From Paracoccaceae bacterium (lineage in GTDB: Bacteria > Pseudomonadota > Alphaproteobacteria > Rhodobacterales > Rhodobacteraceae): 44,738 nt of DNA. The stretch lies in contig JAFMKS010000013.1 of assembly GCA_017852835.1 (NCBI GenBank), forward strand, positions 1-44,738. The letters are read 5' to 3'. Below the pieces are notes generated by a model. The model was given only the letters and a program-made list of their open reading frames with translations. It did not search any database and was not told where the DNA came from. A program made the translations under genes and the position numbers. Positions 19,069-27,940 of this stretch are shown one piece after another (the stretch's first letter is position 1; every line of letters begins with the position of its first letter).

Positions 19069-19154
19069 GTTTCGTGTCCTTTGTGTTGGGCAAGCGGAAA
19101 GGATGACAGGACGGCACAGGGTGCAGGTTCCAGTCACCGGATCACCTCGCCCGG

Positions 19155-19340
19155 ATGGTTATGTCGGCTGGCAGGTCTCCCGGCTGGCCAAGTGGGTTTT
19201 CCCCTGCGTGAGGCCTTCCCAATCCATGATCAGTGGCGGACACGCGCTTGGTTTACGGTCGCGAGGGCGGCTGCGGCTCACACAAAGTCGTTTGTGCTCT
19301 CGCATTCCCTTTTCACCTGTCCTACATAACAGGCACCAGC
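19155..19340 (-). promoter_or_regulatory. Cobalamin (adenosylcobalamin) riboswitch
   Basis: On the minus strand the leader carries the conserved parts of a cobalamin riboswitch in order. These are AGGTGAAAAGGGAATGCG (about 19302-19319), GCCACTG followed by GGGAAGGC (about 19211-19236), and the B12 box CAGCCGGGAGACCTGCC (about 19171-19187). A closing P1 stem pairs GTTATGT (19324-19330) with ACATAAC (19158-19164). It lies about 90 bases upstream of the DUF1636 start. It should shut off DUF1636-cobW-cobN-cobG-cobH-cobI-cobJ, and perhaps the genes beyond, when cobalamin is plentiful. No second riboswitch is seen for cobO-cobQ. Confidence 0.95.
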
Positions 19341-19346
19341 AGGTGC

Positions 19347-19376
19347 TTATGTCACACCCGCCCCTTCAAAAGTCAA
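19347..19376 (-). promoter_or_regulatory. Candidate promoter of the riboswitch-led cob operon
   Basis: On the minus strand, TTGACT (19371-19376) and ACATAA (19347-19352) are separated by 18 bases. This predicts a transcript start near 19340, just outside the P1 stem of the riboswitch. The -10 lies in an imperfect palindrome, ACATAA-CAG-GCACC-AGCA-GGTGC-TTATGT (19324-19352), which could be an operator or chance. The promoter is inferred from consensus and from its fit to the riboswitch boundary. Confidence 0.5.
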
Positions 19377-20031: not shown

Positions 20032-21477
20032 ATGTCACGCGCCATCATGTTTCAGGGAACAGGATCCAACGTGGGGAAATCCATGTTGGTCGCAGGGATC
20101 GCGCGCGCGTTCAAAAACCGTGGCCTGCGCGTGGCCCCCTTTAAACCGCAAAACATGTCAAACAATGCGGCTGTGACGGTGGACGGTGGTGAAATCGGGC
20201 GTGCGCAGGCATTGCAAGCTTGGGCCGCGGGGTTGGAACCACATACGGATATGAACCCCGTTTTGTTGAAACCTGAAACCGAAACAGGATCACAAATTGT
20301 GGTTCAGGGTAAGCGGTTCGCAACCGTTGCTGCGCGCGGATATAGCGCCGTCAAACCAAAATTAATGGCGCCCGTTCTCGAAAGCTTTCATCGCCTGAAA
20401 TCGCAATATGATTTGGTTCTTGTCGAAGGGGCGGGCAGCCCCGCCGAGGTGAACCTGCGCCAAGGGGATATTGCCAATATGGGGTTTGCACAGGCGGCAG
20501 ATGTACCTGTGGTGCTGTGTGGCGATATCAATCGCGGCGGCGTGATCGCGCAAATCGTAGGCACGCAAAATGTGCTGGATGATGCAGATCGCAGCAAGAT
20601 TTGCGCGTTTCTTATCAATATGTTTCGCGGCGATCCCAGCCTATTTGATGATGGCTATGACCTGATCAAAACAACCACGGGATGGCCTGGTTTGGGGGTG
20701 GTTCCGTGGTTTCCACATGCATGGAAACTGCCCGCAGAGGATGCCATGGACCTGCGCCACAGTGAAAAAGGATCTGCAAAAATTATTTGCCTGTGCCTGT
20801 CGCGCATGGCCAATTTTGATGATCTGGACCCCTTGGGCCAAGAACCAAACGTCGAGCTGATCATGCTACAGGCGGGTCAGGCGATCCCGGGCGCTGCGGA
20901 TTTGGTGATCATCCCGGGCAGCAAATCAACACGCGGCGATTTGCAATTCCTGCGGGATCAAGGTTGGGACATAGATTTGCAGGCCCATGTGCGCCGTGGC
21001 GGATATGTTTTGGGCATTTGTGGCGGGTATCAAATTTTGGGCCGCACCATTGATGATCCTGAGGGGATCGAAGGGGTCGCAGGATCAGATCAGGGTTTGG
21101 GATTATTGCAAAGCGATACGGTGATGACCCCGAACAAGGTGCTAACCCAAGTGAACGCACACCACCGTGCCACCAATCTGGAATTTCAGGGGTATGAAAT
21201 TCATATCGGTCAAACCAAGGGTCCCGATTGCGCCCGCCCCTTTGCCACGATTGACGGACGCGCAGATGGGGCCACATCCGCAGACGGGCGCATCATTGGC
21301 AGTTATCTGCATGGCATGTTCAGCAATGACACCTTTCGCGCCGCGTTTTTGGCGCAACTGGGCATAAAATCCGAATTGGGCAACTATCGCCAAGATGTTG
21401 AAACCACATTGGATCAATTGGCCGCGCATTTGGAACAGCACGTGGATCTGGATGAAATCCTGCGCCTTGCACATTGA
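20032..21477 (+). CDS. cobQ: Cobyric acid synthase CobQ
   Basis: CobQ amidates the b, d, e and g side chains of adenosylcobyrinic acid a,c-diamide with glutamine and ATP, giving cobyric acid. Seen: the N-terminal [17 protein letters not shown]-loop, [26 protein letters not shown], the amidotransferase cysteine in [10 protein letters not shown] and the histidine in SYLHGMF. Length is 481 residues, standard. It follows cobO by 11 bases and must share its transcript. A 406-base stretch without genes follows. Confidence 0.96.
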
Positions 21478-21638
21478 TGTCTTCGTGTTCATACGACGCT
21501 GTAGAGGCACAACCTGCCTGACAAGAATTTCTCATAACTCCAATCCTCCTGTTTTGCCTCTGACAAAGCTTCGGTTTGAATAGACAGTCGTCATCAACCA
21601 ATCTTATTCCAACTGATGAGATAAACTTACTTCAGTTA

Positions 21639-21667
21639 TTGCCATTTTCCGTATTTCTTGTGCTAAT
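21639..21667 (+). promoter_or_regulatory. Candidate promoter for a small RNA
   Basis: TTGCCA (21639-21644) is followed after 17 bases by GCTAAT (21662-21667), matching the sigma-70 consensus at 5 of 6 and 4 of 6 positions. The predicted start, about 21675, falls just ahead of the first hairpin at 21681. The match is moderate; the positional fit is what makes it worth noting. Confidence 0.35.
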
Positions 21668-21674
21668 CTACGGT

Positions 21675-21795
21675 TAAGCACACGCCCGTGGGCGGTTAAC
21701 AGGGCTGAGGTGACGAAGCCCCCGCCCTTCGGGACGGGCGTGGGCTGGATCATACGCGATTAGTCTTCGCCACGGCTCAGACCGCGCATGATCTG
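21675..21795 (+). ncRNA. Candidate structured RNA with two stem-loops
   Basis: The first hairpin pairs CACGCCCGT (21681-21689) with ACGGGCGTG (21734-21742), GGGCGG (21690-21695) with CCGCCC (21722-21727), and GGGCT (21702-21706) with AGCCC (21717-21721). The second pairs GATCATACGCG (21748-21758) with CGCGCATGATC (21783-21793), with one mismatch, and GTCT with AGAC inside it. No protein-coding frame explains the block and no T-run follows, so it is not a simple terminator. It could be an independent small RNA or a leader for the SRAP gene at 21884. I do not recognise a known RNA family. The rest of 21478-21883 shows nothing I can assign. Confidence 0.42.
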
Positions 21796-21883
21796 AATGC
21801 ACAAAATCTAAGTCCGATGCTATTGATTATGACGCGTGTTTCACTAGGCTATCGCCATTATACGGACATAGGATTTACGCGCC

Positions 21884-22549
21884 ATGTGTGGACGGTTCAT
21901 TTTAGGGGATAGCAATTGGGCGGCCTATCATGATGCGTTGTCGATTTTGCAAGGTGTTCTTGGAAACATCAGCCACAATATCAAACCCACGCAATCTGTC
22001 AGCATGGCCTATATGTACAATGACATCCTGCGGGCGGATGCGGCGCGGTGGTGGTTTGTGCCCCATTGGCATCGCGGCCCCGCCACGGATTGGAAGGCGA
22101 CAACCTTTAACACCAAAATCGAAACCGCCCATGAAAAGCCCAGCTTTCGCACCGCATGGGAACGGGGCCGCTGTATCATCCCTGCCTCGGGATATTACGA
22201 ATGGACGGGGGCAAAGGGACAAAAAACCCCGTGGTTCATCAGCCCCCAAACCAACCTGCCTGTTTTCTTTTTTGCAGGGCTTTACGCCCCCTTGGCCGAA
22301 GGCGGGATGAGCTGTTCCATCCTAACGCGCCCCGCCCTGCCCGAACTGGAACACCTACATCCCCGCATGCCCGTGATGTTGTCAGGGGATGAATTGATGC
22401 CATGGTTGCGTCATGGCGCAACGGATGACGATGTGCGCAATCACTTTGGCCTTTCGTGGTCAGGGCAGATGAACATGCACCCCGTGCGCCCCTTTGGCAT
22501 TCGTGATGATGATCCCAGCCTGATCGAACAGGACGGGTTTGGGTTTTAG
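21884..22549 (+). CDS. SRAP-domain protein (YedK/HMCES family)
   Basis: Family members crosslink covalently to abasic sites in single-stranded DNA through Cys2 and protect them during replication. Seen: the N-terminal MCGRF with Cys2, the conserved PASGYYEWTG with the catalytic-region Glu, and LHPRMPVML with the active-site His. Length is 221 residues, typical. It lies directly upstream of the SOS mutasome operon on the same strand, which suggests a shared role in DNA-damage tolerance, but no SOS box was found in front of it. The annotation 'SOS response-associated peptidase' is the older name. Confidence 0.93.
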   Translation: MCGRFILGDSNWAAYHDALSILQGVLGNISHNIKPTQSVSMAYMYNDILRADAARWWFVPHWHRGPATDWKATTFNTKIETAHEKPSFRTAWERGRCIIPASGYYEWTGAKGQKTPWFISPQTNLPVFFFAGLYAPLAEGGMSCSILTRPALPELEHLHPRMPVMLSGDELMPWLRHGATDDDVRNHFGLSWSGQMNMHPVRPFGIRDDDPSLIEQDGFGF

Positions 22550-22627: not shown

Positions 22628-22656
22628 TTGAAATGAGAACAAAAAGTGAACATAAT
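22628..22656 (+). promoter_or_regulatory. SOS promoter with LexA box in the spacer
   Basis: TTGAAA (22628-22633) and CATAAT (22651-22656) are 17 bases apart, a near-consensus sigma-70 promoter. The spacer and the first base of the -10 hold GAAC-N7-GAAC (22637-22651), the reverse-complement form of the alphaproteobacterial LexA site GTTC-N7-GTTC. LexA bound here would block RNA polymerase. The predicted start is about 22663-22665, on or next to the imuA ATG. Confidence 0.85.
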
Positions 22657-22663
22657 GTTTTTC

Positions 22664-23215
22664 ATGCTGCTACGATTCTCTGATATTTTCCCGCTAAAAC
22701 GCGGACGCGCGCATGAGGTGACGGGACCCAGTGCGCCTGTTTTTGCGGGAATTTCCGTTGGATTATCACGCATGCCTGCATTTTGGTTCGTCGAAGATTG
22801 GATGCACGAAACCCTTAATCCAATGGGGTTGATCCCCTATTGCGATCCACATCACATTTTAATTGGAAAGTGCCCCACGCCCACAGATGTTTTGGCCGCA
22901 ACAGAAGAGGCGCTGCGCTCGGGCGTGGTGCCCTATGTCATCGCCGAGATTAGCAAACCCCTGACCCTAAAGGCAGGGCGGCGATTGCAATTGGCCGCAG
23001 GTCAGGGGCGCGCCACGGGGATTATGATTATCCCCCAGGGCATGGGCAGCAATGCGGCCCAAACCCGCTGGGACGCACGCCCCAAGTTTTCCACCCCAAA
23101 CGATGCCTTAATGCAGTGGTCTTTGGTTAAAAACAAATCTGGCACCGTGGCCAGTTGGGATGTTCGCTGGAATGAAGAAACGCATCATATCTCTGTGGTT
23201 CCCAAGGCTGCATAG
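22664..23215 (+). CDS. imuA: ImuA, SOS mutasome accessory protein
   Basis: ImuA is the RecA/SulA-like partner of ImuB and DnaE2 in damage-induced translesion synthesis. The protein has the family's PLKRGRAHEVTGP opening and RRLQLAAGQGRATGIMI, WDARPKFSTPND and the C-terminal WDVRWNEETHH. Upstream in-frame GTG (22646) and ATG (22655) lie inside the LexA box or -10 element, so ATG 22664 is the first start that could be transcribed; it is probably leaderless. That gives 183 residues. It overlaps imuB by 44 bases. Confidence 0.86.
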   Translation: MLLRFSDIFPLKRGRAHEVTGPSAPVFAGISVGLSRMPAFWFVEDWMHETLNPMGLIPYCDPHHILIGKCPTPTDVLAATEEALRSGVVPYVIAEISKPLTLKAGRRLQLAAGQGRATGIMIIPQGMGSNAAQTRWDARPKFSTPNDALMQWSLVKNKSGTVASWDVRWNEETHHISVVPKAA

Positions 23216-24638
23216 CGATCGCATTTTGCGACGTCAGCCAATGACAGGACCCTTTGCGGTGACCGCACATGCGCAGAACACCGACCGTCTGCTCTGCGTC
23301 AACCAAGAGGCGCAGAGCGCAGGGTTGGAACGTGGCATGTCCCTGTCTGATGCGCATGCGCTCTGCCCCAGTTTGCGCAGCGAACCCCATCACCCCCAAG
23401 CAGATCAATATTTCCTAAGCGGGCTAAGCCGTTGGGCACGGCGCTATTGCCCTTGGGTCGCCCAAGACGGTGGGGACGGGTTGTTAATGGACATCACAGG
23501 ATCCGCACATTTATTTGGCGGGGAAGAGGCCATGTTAAATGATCTGGGCCATCGTTTGGGTCATGCCCGCCTGAACGCGCGATGGGGGGTTGCGGATACG
23601 CGGGGGGCGGCATGGGCATTGGCGCATTATCGCCCCGGCATTGCCGCGATGGGCGAGACAGAGCGTGCCTTAAATTCACTGCCTGTGGCCGCCCTGCGGA
23701 TCGCCCCACAAGAGGATGTGACATTACAGCGTTTGGGGGTGAAAACCATTGGACAGTTAACCAAACTGCCCCGCGCCACCCTTGGGCAGCGCTTTGGCGC
23801 CTCGGTTCTTATGCGGTTGGATCAGGCATTGGGCACACATGGCGAAACCATTTCCCCCGAGGCAGAGGCCCCCGTCTATGCAACCCGCCTGACCTTTCCC
23901 GAACCCATTGGGTTGAGTTCGGATGTCATGGCCGCACTGGAACGATTGCTGCCTGCGCTCTGTGCAAAATTGCGCGATCACCAAATGGGTGCGCGCACCA
24001 TGCTGTTGATTTGTCGTCGCGTGGATGGACAGGATCAGCAGGTTGAATTGCGCCTTGCGCGACCCTTGCGGGATGCTGCGCGTATTCAACCCCTGTTCGA
24101 ACGTGGTGTTGGCACCATTGATGCGGGGTTCGGAATTGACCAACTGCGGCTGGTCGCAACCCAAGTGGAACATTTGGCCGTCGAACAAATCGCCCATCAC
24201 GCCCCACAATCCCAAGATGGGTTACATGATCTGATCACGCGATTGGGAAATCGGATTGGGTTGGACAATATTCAGCGGTTTTTACCCGCAGATAGCCATA
24301 TCCCCGAGCGCAGTTTTAAAATCGCCGCCGCCGCATGGAGCGAGCCAAGCGGCACATGGGTCAGCCCCGCGCCCCGCCCCATTCGCATCTTTCCCCCAGA
24401 GGGGATCGCCGCGACAGGCAATGCGCCCCCCAAACGATTTCGCTGGCGCCGTCAATCCTTGGCCACGGCGCGGGCAACAGGGCCCGAACGCATTGCACCT
24501 GAATGGTGGTTGATGGACGAAAATTGGCGCAGTGGGATGCGCGATTATTGGCGCATTGAAACACAACAAGGGCGCCGTTTGTGGATGTTTTACACCCCGC
24601 AAAACCCAGGGTGGTTCGTACATGGGGAATTTGCGTGA
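23172..24638 (+). CDS. imuB: ImuB, catalytically inactive Y-family polymerase homologue
   Basis: ImuB acts as a hub that brings DnaE2 to the sliding clamp during mutagenic repair. It has the Y-family fold but lacks the metal-binding acidic residues: the usual SIDEAYLD motif is replaced by LLMDITGSAHLFGG, and the N-terminal DMDAFYASVE motif is absent (SLWFPRLHSDRI instead). A helix-hairpin-helix-like segment, LQRLGVKTIGQLTKLPR, follows. ATG 23172 (MKKRIISLWF) gives 488 residues and matches family N termini. It overlaps imuA and its stop overlaps the dnaE2 GTG. Confidence 0.92.
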   Translation: MKKRIISLWFPRLHSDRILRRQPMTGPFAVTAHAQNTDRLLCVNQEAQSAGLERGMSLSDAHALCPSLRSEPHHPQADQYFLSGLSRWARRYCPWVAQDGGDGLLMDITGSAHLFGGEEAMLNDLGHRLGHARLNARWGVADTRGAAWALAHYRPGIAAMGETERALNSLPVAALRIAPQEDVTLQRLGVKTIGQLTKLPRATLGQRFGASVLMRLDQALGTHGETISPEAEAPVYATRLTFPEPIGLSSDVMAALERLLPALCAKLRDHQMGARTMLLICRRVDGQDQQVELRLARPLRDAARIQPLFERGVGTIDAGFGIDQLRLVATQVEHLAVEQIAHHAPQSQDGLHDLITRLGNRIGLDNIQRFLPADSHIPERSFKIAAAAWSEPSGTWVSPAPRPIRIFPPEGIAATGNAPPKRFRWRRQSLATARATGPERIAPEWWLMDENWRSGMRDYWRIETQQGRRLWMFYTPQNPGWFVHGEFA

Positions 24639-27600
24639 TCTATAGCGAACTGTGTACAACCAGCAATTTCACATTTTTACGCGGGGCCTCCCACCCCGAG
24701 GAATTGGTCACACGTGCGGCCGATTTGGGATTGTCGGCCATTGCCATTACCGATCACAACAGCCTTGCAGGGGTTGTGCGGGCCTATGCCGCGTTAAAAG
24801 AGCTGCGGCGCAATATGGATGAAATCACCATCAGATCGACAAAACGTGTTGATCCCAGCAGCCGAGAGGAACTCCAAGGCCAAGACATCACCCTGCATGG
24901 GGATCACCTGCCCAAATTGATTATCGGGGCGCGCCTGATCCTAGAAGATAGTGATGTGGATTGGGTGGCCCTGCCCCGTGATCGCAAAGCCTATGAAGCG
25001 CTGTCACGGCTTTTGACGCTTGGAAAGCGGCGCAGTGAAAAAGGATCTTGTCAGCTTTATTACGCGGATGTTTTAGAGGGGGCACAGGGTATGATCCTGA
25101 TCGCCCTGCCCCACACGCTTGAACAAGAGGCCAGCGCACATATCCGTCAGATGGCGCGCCGCTATCCTGGACATGTCTATTTGGGGGCCGCCCCCCGATA
25201 TGACGGATCGGATCAGGAATATTTCAACGCCTGTCAAACCCTTGCCCATAGTACGGCCGCCCCCATGGTCGCGGTTGGCGATATCCTGATGCATCATGGA
25301 TCGCGCCGCCAATTGGCCGATGTTCTGACCTGTATTCGCGAAGGATGCCGCATTGATAACATTGGCACACGGGCCCTGCCCAATAGCGAACGGCGCCTAA
25401 AATCCCCTGCCGATATGGCGCGCCTGTTTCGTCATCATCCTGCCGCCCTGCGCCGCACGCAGGAAATCGCGGACAAATGCGCGTTTTGTCTGTCGGAATT
25501 ATCCTATGAATATCCCGATGAAATCACCGATGGCGAAGATGCCCAAAGCCGTTTGGAACGTCTAAGTGAGGCGGGGTTAAATTGGCGATATCCAAACGGT
25601 GTCACCGACCAAGTCCGCGCCCTTGCGATCAAGGAATTGGCATTGGTGAAACGATTGGGATTTGCGGCCTATTTCCTAACGGTACATGACATTGTGCAAT
25701 TCGCAAAATCCCAAGGTATCCTCTGTCAGGGGCGCGGATCGGCGGCCAATTCCATTTTGTGCTATGCCTTGGGTGTGACGGATGTGGGGCCTGAAACGAT
25801 CACCATGGTGTTTGAACGCTTTATGTCGGAATACCGCGGCGAACCCCCTGACATCGACGTTGATTTTGAACATGAACGCCGCGAAGAGGTGATCCAACAT
25901 ATCTATGAAAAATATGGACGCGAACGTGCCGGGCTGTGCGCCACAGTGGTGCATTTCAGAACCCGCGCCGCCATTCGTGAGGTGGGCAAGGTTATGGGCC
26001 TGTCCCAAGATGTCCTTAGCAACCTAAGCGGACAGATTTGGGGATCCTATAGCCGCGGTGAAATCGGAGAAGAGCGATTGCGCGCCGTGGGATTGGACCC
26101 AAGTGATCCGCGCCTGATGCAAACCCTGCGCCTGATTGGAGAATTGATCGGATTTCCCCGTCACCTAAGCCAGCATGTCGGCGGATTTATCATCACCAAA
26201 GGACGTTTGGATCATCTATGCCCCATTGAAAATGCGGCCATGGAGGATCGCACAATCATCGAATGGGATAAGGATGACATCGACACTCTTGGGATTTTAA
26301 AGGTGGATATTTTGTCATTGGGCATGCTGACTTGCATCCGCAAATCCTTTGATTTGATCACCCAGCATGAGGGCGAAACCCTAAGTATTGGCACCATCCC
26401 ACAAGAGGATAAGGACACCTATGACATGCTGTGTCGCGCCGATGCGATTGGGGTGTTTCAGGTGGAAAGCCGCGCACAGATGAATTTCTTGCCCCGCATG
26501 AAACCGCAAACCTTTTATGATCTGGTGATCGAGGTTGCGATTGTGCGCCCCGGTCCCATTCAGGGGGGCATGGTGCACCCCTATATCAATCGCCGCCAAG
26601 GCAAAGAGGCGATTGAATATCCATCAGGTGCCCTGCAAGAAGTGCTTGGCAAAACATTTGGCGTGCCCCTATTTCAGGAGCAAGCCATGCAAATCGCGGT
26701 GGTTGGCGCAGGCTTTAGCCCAGAAGAGGCAGACCACCTGCGCAGGTCGCTGGCCACGTTCCGAAAAATGGGTACCATCGGAACCTTTCGCGATCGTTTT
26801 GTGCGCGGCATGTTGGAACGCGGATATGAGGAAGATTTTGCGGTCCGCTGTTTTTCACAGATCGAAGGGTTTGGGGAATATGGTTTCCCCGAAAGCCATG
26901 CCGCGGCCTTTGCCATGCTGGCCTATGTTTCGGCCTGGTTAAAACGGCATCACCCTGCGGTCTTTGCCTGTGCGCTTTTGAATTCACAGCCGATGGGATT
27001 TTATGCGCCCGCGCAAATCGTGCGGGATGCACGTGAACACGGCATCGAAATTCGCCCCATTTGCGTCAACAATTCCAACTGGGACAACCATCTGGAACGG
27101 CGTAGCGATGGGCGTTTGGCTCTGCGCTTGGGGTTTCGACAAATCAAAGGGATGAAGCAAGAGGACGCAGAATGGATCAGCGCCTGTCGCGGCAATGGGT
27201 ATTATGACATCCCCAGCCTATGGTTGCGTGCGGGCCTTGCGCCCGCGGCCTTGGAACGTTTGGCCGAGGCAGATGCCTTTGGCGGTATGGGGCTTAATCG
27301 GCGCGATGCCTTATGGCGGATCAAATCCATCCGTGCGGACAAACCGCTTCCCCTGCTCAGTGATCCAATGGATGGCGAGGCGATCTATGAACCAGGTGTT
27401 GATCTGCCCACTATGAATTTGGGCGAAGAGGTGGTTGAGGATTACGTGTCCATCCGCATGTCCCTGCGCGCCCATCCTGTTGAATTACTGCGTCCCCTGC
27501 TCATAGGATTAACGCCACATGCGGAATTGACCCATATTCCATTGGGGCCTGTGGATGTCTGTGGTTTGGTGATCACACGCCAACGCCCAGGCACAGCATC

Positions 27601-27940
27601 AGGGGTGATTTTCCTAACGCTTGAGGATGAAACAGGGGTCAGCAATGTGGTTGTCTGGCCCAAGGTTTATGAACAATTTCGCACCGCGGTGATTGGCGGG
27701 CGTTTGTTGCGTGTGCGCGGGTATTTACAGCGCGAAGGCATCGTTGTGCATGTCATCGCCCAAGAGGTTCAGGACCTATCGCCCAAATTGGCCGAACTAG
27801 GCCACCCGCGCGATGATGCCATCGGGATTACCGACCCCAAAACGGATGAGGCCCCGCGCCCCGCCACGCCAAAGCCACGCAATGCATGGCACCCAAGGGA
27901 TCAGGCGAAAAAGCTATTTCCAAGTCGAGATTTTCATTAA
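24635..27940 (+). CDS. dnaE2: Error-prone DNA polymerase III alpha subunit DnaE2
   Basis: DnaE2 is the C-family polymerase that carries out SOS mutagenesis with ImuA and ImuB. Seen: the PHP domain at the N terminus (YSELCTTSNFTFLRGASHPE, ITDHNSLAG), the polymerase core with CQGRGSAANSILCYALG and the acidic GEPPDIDVDFEHERREE, a helix-hairpin-helix region, and an OB fold near the end (GLVITRQRPGTA). The C-terminal FPSRDFH is typical. The GTG at 24635 overlaps the imuB stop as GTGA and gives 1,101 residues; no ATG fits without cutting the PHP domain. Confidence 0.95.
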   Translation: MIYSELCTTSNFTFLRGASHPEELVTRAADLGLSAIAITDHNSLAGVVRAYAALKELRRNMDEITIRSTKRVDPSSREELQGQDITLHGDHLPKLIIGARLILEDSDVDWVALPRDRKAYEALSRLLTLGKRRSEKGSCQLYYADVLEGAQGMILIALPHTLEQEASAHIRQMARRYPGHVYLGAAPRYDGSDQEYFNACQTLAHSTAAPMVAVGDILMHHGSRRQLADVLTCIREGCRIDNIGTRALPNSERRLKSPADMARLFRHHPAALRRTQEIADKCAFCLSELSYEYPDEITDGEDAQSRLERLSEAGLNWRYPNGVTDQVRALAIKELALVKRLGFAAYFLTVHDIVQFAKSQGILCQGRGSAANSILCYALGVTDVGPETITMVFERFMSEYRGEPPDIDVDFEHERREEVIQHIYEKYGRERAGLCATVVHFRTRAAIREVGKVMGLSQDVLSNLSGQIWGSYSRGEIGEERLRAVGLDPSDPRLMQTLRLIGELIGFPRHLSQHVGGFIITKGRLDHLCPIENAAMEDRTIIEWDKDDIDTLGILKVDILSLGMLTCIRKSFDLITQHEGETLSIGTIPQEDKDTYDMLCRADAIGVFQVESRAQMNFLPRMKPQTFYDLVIEVAIVRPGPIQGGMVHPYINRRQGKEAIEYPSGALQEVLGKTFGVPLFQEQAMQIAVVGAGFSPEEADHLRRSLATFRKMGTIGTFRDRFVRGMLERGYEEDFAVRCFSQIEGFGEYGFPESHAAAFAMLAYVSAWLKRHHPAVFACALLNSQPMGFYAPAQIVRDAREHGIEIRPICVNNSNWDNHLERRSDGRLALRLGFRQIKGMKQEDAEWISACRGNGYYDIPSLWLRAGLAPAALERLAEADAFGGMGLNRRDALWRIKSIRADKPLPLLSDPMDGEAIYEPGVDLPTMNLGEEVVEDYVSIRMSLRAHPVELLRPLLIGLTPHAELTHIPLGPVDVCGLVITRQRPGTASGVIFLTLEDETGVSNVVVWPKVYEQFRTAVIGGRLLRVRGYLQREGIVVHVIAQEVQDLSPKLAELGHPRDDAIGITDPKTDEAPRPATPKPRNAWHPRDQAKKLFPSRDFH

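Follow-up and report, generated by a model that had tools for sequence, protein, structure and literature searches.

The two-hairpin stretch at positions 21666-21795 of the window (the whole stretch of 44,738 nucleotides that was analysed) is one copy of a dispersed, foldable repeat and not a new single-locus RNA gene. We consider it probable that this copy represents a palindromic intergenic repeat of the REP/BIME-like kind, a passive, non-autonomous DNA element that is spreading now or did so formerly. The initial annotation had described an unassigned two-hairpin RNA candidate here; since the stretch is not unique, we read it as a copy of a dispersed repeat and not as an RNA gene. The earlier observation is thus partly confirmed and its interpretation partly supported.

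The RNA fold of 21666-21795 has an energy of −61.5 kcal/mol (z −4.00), and none of 200 shuffles was as stable. Both strands fold equally well, and the minus strand (RNA z −4.42) and DNA energies (z −4.64 and −4.87) give better z scores. The whole interval originally proposed, 21639-21795, gave a weaker z of −3.09 with two of 200 shuffles as stable; in its best fold the outer stem of hairpin 1 re-pairs with upstream bases, and its first 27 bases (21639-21665) lie outside the repeated unit. The limits 21666 and 21795 are those of the core as the covariance models fit it, matching this short-form copy on the plus strand at exactly these coordinates with 148.4 and 145.1 bits; the ends are approximate, and the best BLAST copies elsewhere begin and stop nearby.

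The fold of the core recovered the layered hairpin of 9, 6 and 5 pairs with two 6-base bulges that had been proposed from the sequence. Hairpin 1 (21677-21746, plus strand) consists of an outer stem (21677-21689/21734-21746; nine pairs, a mismatch and three more pairs), a middle stem (21690-21695/21722-21727) and an inner stem (21702-21706/21717-21721), with the 5′ bulge TTAACA at 21696-21701 and the 3′ bulge TTCGGG at 21728-21733, each of 6 bases. This 3′ bulge is short in some copies; in others, the long-form copies, it accommodates a further hairpin of some 30 bases. The apical loop GAGGTGACGA (21707-21716; columns 42-53 of the genus alignment) could possibly form tandem G-A pairs, a single closing pair and a GNRA-like loop. 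The GNRA-like loop is GTGA in the window copy and GCAA, GAAA or GTAA in others, and the closing pair over 35 copies is G-C in 22, A-U in eight, G-U in three and unpaired in two. Hairpin 2 (21748-21793, plus strand) has an outer stem of 11 positions with one A-C mismatch (21748-21758/21783-21793), which agrees with the second stem described before, and an inner stem at 21763-21766/21779-21782. Between genera, changes on both sides of a pair are seen in one outer-stem pair and the inner stem of hairpin 1, and in six outer-stem pairs of hairpin 2.

The genes on either side of the window copy are tandem and not convergent, which counts against a passive repeat; the copy is on the same strand as both. 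The upstream gene (20032-21477, plus strand) and the downstream gene (21884-22549, plus strand) have orthologues at the same place in Rhodobacteraceae bacterium HIMB11; we take them to be cobQ-like and SRAP-like, names that come from the initial annotation. The only Rfam match over threshold in the window, a cobalamin riboswitch (RF00174, 83.7 bits), is at 19153-19355 on the minus strand, beside cobalamin-looking genes, and after the SRAP gene there is a run (22646-27940, plus strand) that, judged from its translations, presumably resembles an imuA-imuB-dnaE2 mutagenic-repair cassette.

The reported absence of a coding frame and of a T-run was borne out: no open reading frame of at least 60 amino acids overlaps 21602-21883, and the scan of 21470-21900 gave no T-run terminator where 0.2 were expected. 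An intrinsic terminator at the repeat was rejected, no T run being found on either strand. The promoter-like pair with a predicted start at about 21675 was not recovered, since 21470-21900 held no sigma-70-like pair (0.5 expected by chance), and among the genus copies with enough upstream sequence only two of 34, the window copy counted, have such a pair; the promoter and terminator tests were simple sigma-70 and T-run scans only. The failure to match a known RNA family was reproduced. At the gathering threshold, Rfam searches of the whole window and 12 related loci returned only cobalamin riboswitch, tRNA and SAM riboswitch, all outside the repeat and none in the gap, and at an E-value of 10 the interval 21470-21900 matched CRISPR-repeat and microRNA models only, far below threshold.

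When the 404-base gap was used as a BLAST query against its own genome, 14 further matches were obtained. One is weak and lies elsewhere; the other 13 are pieces of the repeat, spread over 11 places, and all of these fall in query bases 179-316, corresponding to 21658-21795 of the window. BLAST found copies in all four genomes of the genus, which include HIMB11 (G001) and the MAG P03SWT0bin.10 (G002) and two of which are 76-83% complete. A covariance model built from 35 copies gave, at E 0.01 or better, 11 matches in the own genome and 16, 15 and 3 in the other three, counts that take in the window copy and fragments. The repeat is therefore present in many copies per genome at unrelated places, with 24 distinct sites.

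The copies occur in short, long, truncated and nested forms. Two composites of 323-324 bases (L031 and L044) carry another palindromic module, parts of which are found elsewhere, inside hairpin 2, and two further copies (L022 and L032) are without the 5′ half of hairpin 1. Short and long forms occupy the same site in different species (L004/L040, L003/L039 and L012/L048). The best folds of single copies sometimes leave the common plan: L021 loses hairpin 2, and L061 re-pairs its 5′ part. Genus-type repeats had no match in phage or plasmid records, and a phage or plasmid origin of this type was rejected on that ground; a pattern match on a viral contig (L093) and two of 15 genome matches (L085 and L089) were judged by eye to be chance and had no model match.

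These results bear directly on whether a stand-alone gene for a trans-acting small RNA lies between cobQ and the SRAP gene. Such a gene would fit the strong fold and the gap without an open reading frame, but the many dispersed copies, the lack of a promoter or terminator in the simple scans and of an Rfam family, and the different truncated module at the orthologous site in HIMB11, where only the hairpin-2 part is common, make it very improbable. The single-locus RNA with its own promoter was rejected because of the copy number, the missing promoter and a drift near the flank rate, which is described below.

Copies lie preferentially between convergent genes. The same simple gene caller, taking open reading frames of at least 100 amino acids, was applied to copies and background. 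Of the 47 loci, 28 lay between convergent and 12 between tandem genes, none between divergent genes and seven at a contig edge; the 24 distinct sites comprised 15 convergent and nine tandem sites and no divergent one. With a 60-amino-acid caller the 47 loci became 29 convergent, 11 tandem, one divergent (L002) and six at an edge. The background, 400 kb of HIMB11, held 15 convergent, 37 tandem and 19 divergent gaps of at least 150 bases (n = 71), and 23, 85 and 38, respectively, of at least 60 bases (n = 146). Against the long background gaps, the convergent excess has a Fisher P of 0.0003 and the lack of divergent sites one of 0.003. Gene calls are crude, and a called open reading frame of at least 100 amino acids intrudes on the copy in four of the 47 loci.

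Orientation is mixed. Among the tandem loci seven copies are in the same and five in the opposite orientation, and of the 15 sites found in at least two genomes, two have the repeat inverted with respect to its flanks (L031 versus L043/L050, and L002 versus L037, where the gap differs otherwise too). Place and orientation are kept in most orthologous copies, so that movement would be slow or past. The many copies, the modular forms, the gene-end and convergent placement and the mixed orientation speak for a passive repeat; the mostly constant place and orientation and the single divergent copy obtained with the 60-amino-acid caller speak against it.

The same placement raises the possibility that the hairpins are functional RNA elements of mRNA 3′ ends, selected to block 3′ exonucleases or Rho and copied to many gene ends. 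This account overlaps with that of a passive DNA element, in that an effect on mRNA would be the reason for the repeat's existence in the one case and a side effect in the other. It is favoured by the position of the copies behind genes, with no divergent case among the distinct sites, but the tandem loci have no clear orientation preference and the two strands fold equally well. Taken with the sequence comparisons below, we regard selected 3′-UTR hairpins as possible but rather unlikely.

Within the genus there is little sign that the structure is under selection. Paired cells amounted to 89.0% versus 88.8% in shuffles, which argues against selected 3′-UTR hairpins, and four pairs had both-sided changes versus 4.5 in shuffles. 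Both-sided cells numbered 11 versus 7.1, a value as high being reached in 25 of 500 shuffles, and eight of these 11 cells belong to one apical pair. Wobble was not biased towards the plus strand (41 G-U versus 68 A-C cells; 20 versus 27 kinds). RNAalifold, when run on the within-genus alignment, proposed another pairing, of long range, whose covariation term was only −0.15; nothing here is based on it. Where a site is shared, the rate of drift is similar in the repeat and in the intergenic sequence that flanks it: in 18 chosen orthologous pairs from 10 sites, with gaps not counted, identity was 88.7% in the repeat, 85.8% in the 60-base flanks and 92.4% in sequence 150-500 bases away. That the repeat stays near its flanks, like the lack of a wobble bias, speaks for a passive element, and it is a further point against selected 3′-UTR hairpins; that it is slightly better kept than the nearest flanks is a point against a passive element.

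Compensatory changes in relatives, which the initial annotation had named as a check, are hardly above shuffles within the genus and are present between genera. In copies from G149, an uncultured Rhodobacteraceae MAG (CAKZTM) of another genus, the stems differ in sequence and yet pair. When 27 genus copies were aligned with three from G149, there were 12 pairs with both-sided changes versus 6.4 in shuffles, and 38 both-sided cells versus 9.9 in shuffles and at most nine in slid controls. As the alignment had been made to fit the structure and two of the G149 copies hardly differ from each other, few events are involved. It is nevertheless hard to explain without selection that six pairs in the outer stem of hairpin 2 have changed, and since the stems covary between genera, the structure is no accident. 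While this covariation also favours selected 3′-UTR hairpins, a structure that is kept between genera but shows little compensation among the copies of the genus speaks for a passive repeat. G149 carries, beside the two-hairpin repeat, another dispersed repeat of about 80-295 bases (L053 352-629, L096/L158 and L058 308-391).

Related sequences were found more widely in the family. When a second model was applied with strict filters to 394 family genomes, 11 of them gave matches. Two belong to the genus and one is G149; the remaining eight, each from a different further genus, gave weak matches (E 1.1e-4 to 7.5e-4). With a weak match as query against 10 genomes, 25 places were found in G436, nine in G052, eight in G406, four in G361, three each in G329 and G437, two in G259, four in HIMB11 and none in G081 or G149; these counts take in weak and partial places, and G081 is known by one model match. 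Most of the 26 extracted copies of this wider set have the same plan of outer stem, 3′ bulge of about 6 bases, inner stem and small loop, often with the second hairpin directly after the first, and in two (L181 and L185) the 3′ bulge that is enlarged in the genus long form likewise carries an insert. The stems covary here as well: for 22 of the 26 copies, aligned from eight genomes, there were 41 both-sided cells versus 11.2 in shuffles and at most three in slid controls, and seven pairs versus 5.2. On one strand, G-U exceeded A-C (42 versus 5 cells; 11 versus 4 kinds, P 0.12). This excess hints at selection on one single strand; it is in favour of selected 3′-UTR hairpins and, as it could favour RNA, goes against a purely passive DNA element.

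Common descent of the genus repeat and the wider set appears likely from model searches. In a search of 445 kb, a model made from the wider set only, with no genus sequence, recovered the window element as the second of four matches (21672-21769, E 1.3e-4). Run at E 0.01 on 27 genus and G149 loci, this model gave 15 matches, 12 on the two-hairpin repeat and three on other modules, and missed the two-hairpin repeat in 15 of the 27 loci. With its TTAACA/TTAATA bulge and small loop, G149 looks like an intermediate. A further palindromic module of the genus, which resembles the wider set, is seen at L031 1313-1385, inside the 323-base composite, and at L002 1709-1783, L132 5078-5168 and L145 17925-18013. 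The 26 wider-set copies lie in eight convergent, 14 tandem and two divergent gaps and at two edges; we rest no claim on this placement because gene calls are crude in GC-rich genomes.

The wider-set query also matched 196 plasmid records from six genera, only five of which cover 80% of the query. Among the matches listed, query coverage was 63-86% in Leisingera, Phaeobacter, Tritonibacter and Ruegeria and 35-52% in Paroceanicella and Pseudosulfitobacter (128 records); the Pseudosulfitobacter matches listed were not counted as whole copies because their coverage is about 35-37%. Nearly all of the plasmid matches listed have no gene beneath them; a hypothetical protein covers one match, and some records are without annotation. 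Seven plasmid regions, for which the gene table is incomplete, comprised four tandem and two convergent placements (the latter probably one site in two species) and one assigned to neither kind, with no listed gene over the repeat. One wider-set copy lies within the rfb (dTDP-rhamnose) cluster of Phaeobacter inhibens 2.10 plasmid pPGA2_71 (35795-35865; L190 1201-1271), between rfbB and the gene that follows, again with no listed gene over it, and in three Leisingera plasmids (L191, L194 and L196) the repeat is directly downstream of a death-on-curing toxin/MazE-type antitoxin pair, apparently at one common site.

Structured, non-autonomous intergenic repeats of about 100-200 bases include RUP, BOX and the Correia-type MITEs. 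The present repeat is like them in size and in its structured intergenic form, but neither a terminal inverted repeat nor a target duplication was seen here. The RIME elements of rhizobia, reportedly described by Osteras in 1995 and named in PMC2573895, are alike by description, being intergenic mosaic repeats with dozens of copies per genome that mislead sRNA prediction, but their hosts belong to a different bacterial order. In Sinorhizobium meliloti, 56% of 186 sRNAPredictHT loci lie in gaps that hold some repeat (PMC2573895). The Br-REP1 and Br-REP2 repeats of Bradyrhizobium (PMC5082802) are likewise alphaproteobacterial, intergenic and palindromic and are found at gene ends; Br-REP1 was originally noticed between convergent genes, with a palindrome on either flank, and is described as evolving fast between relatives. 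Their consensus is absent here, the best fits having 9 mismatches in 20 and 20 in 40 among 35 genus copies, and 9 in 20 and 19 in 40 among 22 wider-set copies, and there are about 200 Br-REP sites in Bradyrhizobium versus 3-16 copies per genus genome. Transcripts have been suggested there, and the location of Br-REP1 and Br-REP2 in 3′-UTRs, together with complementary sRNAs suggested by dRNA-seq at a Br-REP1 site (PMC5082802), adds support for selected 3′-UTR hairpins.

The REP and BIME elements of enterobacteria and pseudomonads are mosaic, and they are palindromic, extragenic and frequent between convergent genes (PMC1525189). They differ in their 20-40 bp unit (PMC3733652), whereas the unit here is of about 130 bases, and in having a GTAG tag and a RAYT transposase; here GTAG is not conserved as a tag and no RAYT domain over the cut-off was found. 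Transposition by a RAYT, an IS200/IS605-type Y1 enzyme, would agree with the palindromic form and the intergenic position at gene ends, both of which REPs are described to have (PMC1525189), but apart from the size of the unit, GTAG or its complement occurs in the first 25 bases of only four and the last 25 of only eight of the 35 copies, and in none of 22 wider-set copies. Furthermore, Y1_Tnp (PF01797) was absent from all four genus genomes, the two incomplete ones (76-83%) included, in a search whose controls gave a signal in six of 14, and none of 10 genomes tested had a match over the cut-off, with one weak match in G406. A RAYT-moved REP element is therefore most unlikely.

No clean empty site was found among the loci searched for 16 copies, three sites being compared base by base. 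At the three orthologous gaps checked for target-site duplication other modules were present or the sequence was too diverged, and no inverted pair was seen to join the two ends of the unit, which are approximate. That neither a mobilising enzyme nor a clean empty site or target duplication was found argues against the passive repeat. The features of the broad REP, BIME and RIME kind, namely many copies and an extragenic, palindromic and modular or mosaic form, are all present. No description of the two-hairpin repeat was found in the literature searched, which covered few subscription journals, and the HIMB11 genome paper (PMC4148974) is without the terms repeat, palindrom, transpos and mobile. 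Overall, this is a repeat family of a known broad kind that is apparently undescribed within that literature.

We suggest how a passive palindromic element of this type might behave. A folded single strand, either DNA exposed in replication or repair or a transcript, would be recognised by a trans-acting enzyme and so spread; recombination between copies would be an alternative route. Insertions that hit no promoter would survive. At its present location the pair of hairpins may slow 3′-end decay of the cobQ mRNA, or may be a mild transcription roadblock, as is said of enterobacterial REPs. By analogy, such effects on mRNA 3′ ends are plausible, and they would be a side effect and not the reason for the copy's presence. 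On a rather unlikely reading, the genus repeat and the wider set would form one unnamed class of two-hairpin mobile repeat across the Rhodobacteraceae, with a conserved bulge (TTAACA/TTAATA in two genera), a small apical loop of GNRA or GAA type and an optional third hairpin. Its movement or copying would then depend on a system that recognises single strands and is not of the Y1 (RAYT/IS200) type, and its folded strand would have been under selection across genera.

An apparent orphan RNA gene has thus become a repeat family. Repeats can mislead searches for non-coding RNA, in that the folding statistics of a single copy, and even covariation across genera, mimic an RNA gene. At least 10 genera of an abundant marine bacterial family have look-alikes. 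Since the genomes tested had no Y1 transposase over the cut-off, the way in which these palindromes multiply is now a concrete question, and one for which Phaeobacter inhibens, Leisingera and HIMB11 are examples of culturable strains.
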